A stretch of DNA of 64,000 nt from an uncultured Desulfobulbaceae bacterium (lineage in GTDB: Bacteria > Desulfobacterota > Desulfobulbia > Desulfobulbales > BM004): NCBI GenBank assembly GCA_945787325.1, contig CALZHP010000002.1, positions 1 through 64,000 on the forward strand. Direction: 5' to 3'. How positions within the stretch are numbered: the first letter of the stretch is position 1; every line of letters begins with the position of its first letter. The notes beneath the pieces were generated by a model, which was not told where the DNA came from, searched no databases, and was given only the letters and a program-made list of their open reading frames with translations. Below are positions 7,484 through 9,555 of the stretch, piece after piece. The position numbers and the translations under genes were made by a program.

Positions 7484-8074
7484 ATGTGCACACTGGTAAC
7501 TAAAGAGGCGCCGGATTTCACAGCCCAGGCTGTTATGCCTGATAATTCAATTGATGAACTTACCCTATCATCATACAGAGGGAAATACGTAGTCATCTTT
7601 TTTTATCCGCTCGATTTCACCTTTGTCTGCCCATCAGAGATCCTGGCTTTTAACAGGGCTTTAAATGAATTCAAGAAGAAAAATACTGAAGTTATCGGTA
7701 TTTCGGTGGATTCACAATTCACTCATTTAGCCTGGAAGAATACCCCGATTAATCAGGGTGGAATCGGTGATATCCAGTTCCCACTTGTCGCTGATCTCGA
7801 TAAGAAAATATCGGACGAATACGGCGTTCTGATAGAGGACGGTATTTCCCTGCGGGGACTTTTTCTGATCGATAAAGAAGGCGTCATAAGGCACGAAGTT
7901 GTTAACGACTTGCCCTTGGGAAGAAATACAGAAGAAGCCCTGCGCATGGTAGACGCTTTACAGTTTTTTGAAGAGTACGGCGATGTGTGCCCAGCCAATT
8001 GGAAGCAGGGCGAAGAGGCAATGACACCAACGGCAGAAGGCGTTGCCGACTATCTGGCCAAACATACAAACTGA
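7484..8074 (+). CDS. 2-Cys peroxiredoxin (AhpC/Prx family)
   Basis: FYPLDFTFVCPSEI peroxidatic Cys motif and VCPANW resolving Cys; RBS aggagaaa. Confidence 0.95.
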   Translation: MCTLVTKEAPDFTAQAVMPDNSIDELTLSSYRGKYVVIFFYPLDFTFVCPSEILAFNRALNEFKKKNTEVIGISVDSQFTHLAWKNTPINQGGIGDIQFPLVADLDKKISDEYGVLIEDGISLRGLFLIDKEGVIRHEVVNDLPLGRNTEEALRMVDALQFFEEYGDVCPANWKQGEEAMTPTAEGVADYLAKHTN

Positions 8075-8104: not shown

Positions 8105-8533
8105 ATGATGAACTTAGAAGAGCTGAAGGCTGACAGAAAGTTAGTCAATCAGATAGATTGGGACATGACCCAGGAAAAGGCCATTGAGATGTATCTTGAA
8201 TGGGGGTCCGGTTGGGGGCGTGGTAATGATTTCGTGAGCCATCACGGTCAGGAGGCCATATACTTCGTCCTTTATGATTGGGACGATCCTCCCCAGGTTA
8301 CGCTGATTAGAAGAGACATGAAGGACGCGGTCGAGATTGCCAAGATACCTGTCCCGAATGATCTTTTTCTACAGGCCATAAAAGATGACGGTTCAAGGCC
8401 GGGTGTTGGCGTGCATTCATTGAACCTGAAGCTCAAGGAATGGGTCTGTGAGTCCATTGCCGGGCCGAAATTTGACTGCAAATTTGGCAGCCCGCATTAC
8501 GTTGAGGAGTTAATGCGCTCAGAAGTAAACTGA
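8105..8533 (+). CDS. Conserved hypothetical protein (142 aa)
   Basis: Intact ORF with RBS aggaggtattctt; same strand and close behind the peroxiredoxin. Confidence 0.75.
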   Translation: MMNLEELKADRKLVNQIDWDMTQEKAIEMYLEWGSGWGRGNDFVSHHGQEAIYFVLYDWDDPPQVTLIRRDMKDAVEIAKIPVPNDLFLQAIKDDGSRPGVGVHSLNLKLKEWVCESIAGPKFDCKFGSPHYVEELMRSEVN

Positions 8534-8675: not shown

Positions 8676-9143
8676 TTATTTTTTCAGGATTTCCGGCCAG
8701 TTACGGTCGGCCATTTTAATGTTCCCATTCATGTCCTGCGACCAGCTTTCCTGCACTTTCTCGTTAAGATTCAGGTACAGTCTGCCATCAACTATCGACC
8801 AAAGTGATGGATCTATATCAGCCGTGGTCCCACGGCTCACAGCGAAGGCTCAGTAGCCTCCGTAGCGGGGCGCATATTTTTCAGGGTCATTTTTAAAAAG
8901 GCTTAGATGCTCTGCATTGACAAAATGCCATTTGGCTCCGTTCCATTTATGCTCAAATTCACTGCTACCTTTTACCGGTTTTCCCTGTGTAAAATAAGCG
9001 ACAGTGTCATAACCCTTCATAGCTACTCCATTAGAATCTACATTAACTGGCTGTAGGGTTTTTGGCGAACAGCCCATAAGATTGAACAAAAAAAAGCCTA
9101 AAGTAACAAGAAAAGCTCTGGTGTACATTTGTCTCTTTTTCAT
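8676..9143 (-). CDS. YHS-domain lipoprotein, candidate selenoprotein (in-frame UGA at 8850-8852 read as Sec)
   Basis: ORF stops at YGGY*, but the same frame continues AFAVSRGTTADIDPSLWSIVDGRLYLNLNEKVQESWSQDMNGNIKMADRNWPEILKK to TAA at 8676. The UGA replaces the Cys of YGGYCA(F/Y)AVS in homologs as I know them. SECIS-like hairpin follows. Lipobox LMGC. Confidence 0.82.
8820..8837 (-). promoter_or_regulatory. Candidate bacterial SECIS hairpin AGCCGUG-GGAC-CACGGCU
   Basis: 7-bp perfect stem with GG opening the apical loop; loop lies 20-23 nt after the UGA. Confidence 0.75.
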
Positions 9144-9216
9144 TTTTCACCTCCACATTTTTATTTTCACTGGTTAATCAATTATGTGTTTCCTGTATTT
9201 CTTTATCCGTAACTCT

Positions 9217-9555
9217 TTACGCCTCCTCTTTCCGTCCTTTTTCATTTTCTCTGCACGAACGGCAGCGAACAGCAAGTGAATTTATATTACCCTTAGCAAC
9301 TTCATACCACCATTTCTGGTTTTCTGCAGTCCACACCTCTTCTTTTCCACAATCACGGCAAGTAACAAGTTTATCAGCATAAAAGTAAGGGAGTGGGCCA
9401 TAGGTATTATTGTGCTTAAGTTGAGAATGGTCTGCGCTGATTGCTCCGGCAGGGGGTTGAATAGTATTATCGCAAGTATCTATCCCGGCCATCGCCCTGG
9501 CTCTTTTAAGATGCGCCTCATACAGGCTTTTTTGTTTTGATTTTTTACTGGGCAT
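9217..9555 (-). CDS. Probable zinc-ribbon-containing protein
   Basis: LVTCRDCGKEEVWTAENQKWWYEVAKGN...VRCRSCRENEK: two CxxC motifs. Confidence 0.8.
   Translation of the reverse strand: MPSKKSKQKSLYEAHLKRARAMAGIDTCDNTIQPPAGAISADHSQLKHNNTYGPLPYFYADKLVTCRDCGKEEVWTAENQKWWYEVAKGNINSLAVRCRSCRENEKGRKEEA

Follow-up and report, generated by a model that had tools for sequence, protein, structure and literature searches.

The GOS selenoproteome (PLoS Genet 2008, PMC2398784) includes an entry named "YHS domain protein (OS)," and Sec-containing YHS proteins also appear in a 2022 review. A 2026 review (PMC13188914) lists these proteins under the NCBIfam family NF041384, gives GxU as their motif and traces them to a 2007 study of the Olavius algarvensis Delta 1 symbiont. 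No established function for the NF041384 family was found in the literature. The YHS domain of the Mycobacterium phlei adenylyl cyclase has been described as a copper sensor, which probably acts through one Asp and three Cys residues (PMC4626032).

The DNA analyzed here (the window) is a stretch of 64,000 nucleotides from the metagenome-assembled genome (MAG) of an uncultured Desulfobulbaceae bacterium. According to our analysis, it carries a well-supported further example of this known selenoprotein family. The initial annotation had already suspected that the family might not be new, and this is borne out by the NF041384 name, "YHS domain-containing (seleno)protein," and by the Sec forms listed in the 2008 selenoproteome and the two later reviews. 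The gene and its signals are as follows.

8676 to 9143, minus strand: YHS-family lipoprotein gene, encoding 155 aa with Sec as residue 98; its UAA stop occupies 8676-8678
9143 to 9141, minus strand: ATG start of this gene
9150 to 9154, minus strand: GGAGG, the ribosome-binding site, 6 nt ahead of the ATG
9069 to 9143, minus strand: signal peptide with the lipobox NLMGC; codon of the putatively lipidated Cys25 at 9069-9071
8850 to 8852, minus strand: UGA codon of residue 98, predicted to specify selenocysteine and located where the family has its invariant Cys

The reading frame proposed in the initial annotation is exact to the base: 97 sense codons are followed by the UGA (8852-8850), 57 further sense codons and the UAA (8678-8676). 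The claimed signal sequence and lipobox were likewise recovered at the start of the protein, with FNLMGC at residues 20–25. On the general lipobox rule, we take NLMGC to be a lipobox; read in this way, the 155-aa product begins with a signal peptide that ends in the lipobox Cys. Close relatives have lipoboxes of the ACS/ACT type. As had been pointed out, the ORF track stops at the Sec codon and 37% of the protein is lost from the gene model, a cut made by standard ORF calling that is put right here. Mechanical readthrough of UGA codons gave 140 candidates in the window, 12 of which were left after the overlap filter; the YHS gene was judged to be the sole convincing one among these, and the others resemble adjacent genes or spurious short ORFs.

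The 155-aa readthrough product matched the NF041384 model with 171.7 bits (cut-off 70), and the match covered residues 40–151 and profile positions 2–113 of 113, running across the UGA. The score against the Pfam YHS model PF04945 was 29.7 bits, just under the gathering cut-off of 30.3, with the match at residues 48–93. The designation "YHS-domain" thus stands as far as NF041384 is concerned, but not in the classical sense: the protein falls below the Pfam YHS cut-off and the metal-binding cysteines of YHS/TRASH domains are absent.

The protein was present in 10 of the 12 genomes of the taxonomic family, in seven cases with UGA (including the window) and in three with Cys. A scan of genome contigs yielded 80 relatives, among which two genomes of the taxonomic family appear to have been found again. 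New UGA copies came from two MAGs, one from Nitrospirota (L052) and one betaproteobacterial (L065), and the other copies that were read all had Cys at this position; since the scan pattern ended in GYC, Sec forms were under-sampled and the ratio of Sec to Cys is not an estimate of frequency. The claim that the UGA stands at a conserved Cys was confirmed, as residue 98 was Cys or Sec in all 95 aligned sequences. As expected of a selenoprotein gene, the UGA is in frame, lies in the column of a conserved Cys and has conserved coding sequence after it. Differences between the window gene and its UGA relatives mainly affected third codon positions, to the same extent on either side of the UGA; in comparison with the relative L009, differences at codon positions 1/2/3 numbered 12/6/27 upstream and 11/9/27 downstream. 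The readthrough frame is not a product of chance, because the NF041384 match spans the UGA and the codon-position pattern is alike on both sides. The place where mechanical ORF calling ends would be a true stop if the gene encoded a truncated 97-aa protein or were a nonsense-mutated pseudogene. This is very unlikely, given that the UGA is kept in nine genomes whose proteins are otherwise about 40% divergent, that the coding constraint downstream equals that upstream, and that a SECIS-type hairpin and the Sec machinery are present.

Two further loci were of a different kind. A distant UGA copy (L037/L048, G044:C151:10990-11324) was left out, as the reading frame moves by 2 nt at this codon; a Cys codon into which 2 nt were inserted would explain its DNA just as well, and the copy resembles either a Cys gene that carries a 2-nt indel or a decayed gene. 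The genome of this copy has tRNA-Sec. Another homologue of the family (L030, G094:C48:13803-14135) is broken by one TAG and one TAA and is probably a pseudogene.

Seven MAGs of the taxonomic family and L052, eight UGA members in all, grouped together in the phylogenetic tree with support of 90/84, and the ninth, L065, stood apart from them. The fewest changes between Sec and Cys labels on the tree numbered two, and a single origin of the Sec form would still be compatible with the sequences.

Directly after the UGA, the main UGA clade has a conserved hairpin, a feature that the initial annotation does not mention, of the form AGCCGUG(GGAC or GGUC)CACGGC(U). In the window it is located as follows.

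8820 to 8837, minus strand: SECIS-type hairpin AGCCGUG(GGAC)CACGGCU, 19 nt from the UGA to the apical loop, with GG at loop positions 1-2

The published constraints for bSECIS elements are a loop of 3–9 nt, a stem of 4–16 bp, a G in the first two loop positions and a spacing of 16–37 nt; we also took a minimum free energy of −7.5 kcal/mol or lower. The hairpin of the window, with the loop GGAC, 7 bp and a spacing of 19 nt, lies within these constraints, and a folding energy of −17.9 kcal/mol was obtained for the 54 nt that begin with the UGA. Among the codons for conserved residues, 4 of 5 were invariant inside the hairpin, synonymous sites included, vs. 2 of 37 elsewhere (Fisher p = 6e-4, kinship ignored); the eight main-clade members are related, so this test overstates their independence. 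When synonymous codons of the same peptide were resampled, an equally strong hairpin with a G in the loop appeared in 50 of 20,000 cases. A simple stem score of at least 17 was reached by 9/9 Sec forms vs. 1/85 Cys forms, and a score of at least 18 by 5/9 vs. 0/85; the score of the window hairpin was reached by none of the 85 Cys homologues. The main-clade hairpin hardly varies and thus offers little covariation, so that independent support comes only from L065, where a hairpin of unrelated sequence, UGGCGGCAA(GUC)UUGCCGUCG, has its loop at the same position. The Arg (CGU) of the UGA clade is mostly replaced by Gln in Cys homologues, and its Ser or Thr often by Tyr; this suggests that the hairpin shaped the protein sequence at those positions. 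A change of TGC or TGT into TGA by a sequencing or assembly artefact, of which the distant copy in G044 could serve as a model with its apparent indel artefact or frameshift beside the codon, is extremely improbable for the window gene, as its UGA is common to independent MAGs and is accompanied by a hairpin that is absent from the Cys forms.

The check for Sec machinery suggested along with the initial prediction gave a positive result. The source genome, a MAG of 2.78 Mb with 90% completeness, encodes tRNA-Sec (SelC; 75.3 bits, anticodon TCA), SelA (614 bits), SelB (373.5 bits) and SelD (333.5 bits). All nine UGA genomes contain at least one of tRNA-Sec, SelA or SelB, and most of the genomes compared are incomplete MAGs. 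L065 has an intact tRNA-Sec (75.9 bits) and a SelB that is seemingly split over contig ends, and no SelA above the cut-off was found in its genome. The open frame alone would also be consistent with the UGA being read as another residue, e.g., Trp, by a variant code or by nonsense suppression. However, the column is Cys in the homologues and never Trp, ordinary genes in the window end in UGA, and the anticodon of the encoded tRNA-Sec is TCA, which leaves this reading hardly any plausibility.

The SelD gene lies on the same contig, about 13.5 kb past the end of the window (L021, G000:C2:77530-78456), and has an in-frame UGA of its own (...LARTCGUAAKIGP...). We take the UGA in TCGUAAKIGP to be at the usual Sec position of SelD, and the SelD of the source genome is itself a predicted selenoprotein.

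Overall, the window gene very probably encodes a true bacterial selenoprotein and represents the Sec form of NF041384, and the gene and its relatives indicate that Sec is almost certainly inserted at the UGA. SelB would bind the hairpin that closely follows the UGA and deliver Sec-tRNA(Sec), and the ribosome would read the UGA as Sec, giving a 155-aa pre-lipoprotein. This precursor would then be exported and, presumably, lipid-anchored through Cys25. In the periplasm, the product may work as a one-Sec redox protein with Sec98 as its reactive group; it would reduce peroxides or disulfides and draw on an external thiol as the reductant.

The genes around the selenoprotein gene are listed below.

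9217 to 9555, minus strand: upstream gene for a probable treble-clef zinc-binding protein (PF13451); the adjacency is not kept in relatives
8105 to 8533, plus strand: orphan ORF of 142 aa without a Pfam match, in convergent orientation to the selenoprotein gene
7484 to 8074, plus strand: gene for an AhpC/TSA peroxiredoxin with a 1-cysPrx_C domain, near the selenoprotein gene; the adjacency is not conserved

No conserved operon or neighbors were found between the window and the relatives. In relatives of the genus g2, the neighbors were a carbonic anhydrase and a TrkA-C protein. A DoxX-like gene was seen near six Cys-form loci (L057, L080, L107, L114, L115 and L130), a weak hint at a redox context.

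The AlphaFold2 model of the protein had a mean pLDDT of 92 and a pTM of 0.77, and comparison of the fold with solved structures gave no match at E ≤ 0.001. Asp46 was invariant (95/95). The columns matched by hand to the three classical Cys residues were occupied by Ala at 49 (94/95), by Ala, Ser or Val at 75, and by Asn or His at 79; of the classical ligand set of one Asp and three Cys, only the Asp is thus kept, and the three Cys are absent across the family. One Cys/Sec was the sole such residue of the domain in 90 of the 95 sequences, and no invariant His was found in the 95-sequence alignment.

Because the metal cysteines have been lost and 90 of the 95 domains have a single Cys/Sec, the role that we prefer for Sec98 is that of a single redox residue in thiol or peroxide chemistry, to which we give an even chance; an external thiol would be the reductant, as there is no second Cys in the domain. 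The main rival is that the protein is a sensor or scavenger in which Sec98 and Asp46 together bind a metal or metalloid (e.g., copper or mercury). The distant homology to YHS/TRASH domains, which bind metal, the copper-sensing mycobacterial YHS domain (PMC4626032) and the invariance of Asp46 are consistent with such a site. Nevertheless, a metal-binding role is rather unlikely, since the three Cys ligands are missing throughout the family, no His is invariant, and two invariant side chains alone would make a poor metal site. On the preferred redox reading, a broader scenario can be put forward only tentatively: a metal-binding fold deprived of its metal cysteines may have become a single-chalcogen periplasmic redox enzyme, in which Sec was gained independently at least twice (in the desulfobacterial/Nitrospirota clade and in the betaproteobacterium), and a separate SECIS hairpin would have arisen at the same position in each case.

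With the window gene, a family for which few Sec forms have been documented gains another well-supported one. New in our analysis are the conserved SECIS, a tree that includes both Sec and Cys forms, and the observation that the classical metal ligands are missing. Sec and Cys forms occur as close pairs and the YHS metal ligands have been lost; taken together, these observations argue for one reactive residue and open the function to direct tests.

In comparison with known systems, the closest likeness is to NF041384 (YHS_seleno_dom): the match covers the whole domain, Cys or Sec stands at the same column and 15/15 aligned members match. Nothing structural differs; the window gene is the Sec form and a lipoprotein, whereas most homologues found are Cys forms. 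The YHS selenoprotein of the Olavius algarvensis Delta 1 symbiont and the GOS dataset bears the same family label, and the motif GxU corresponds to G96-Y97-U98 of the window protein; the Delta 1 protein belongs to another organism and is likened to ours by family label and motif. With PF04945, as in the copper sensor of the M. phlei adenylyl cyclase, the protein shares a weak sequence match at residues 48–93 and the common Asp, but it scores below the cut-off, lacks the three metal-binding Cys and is longer by about 60 residues, among them the invariant Cys/Sec. The best, albeit weak, sequence or fold matches were to the YHS-like repeats of adenylate kinase 9 and axonemal proteins (9d2f, 9fqr) and to the YHS region of toluene/o-xylene monooxygenase; none of these is a redox selenoprotein.
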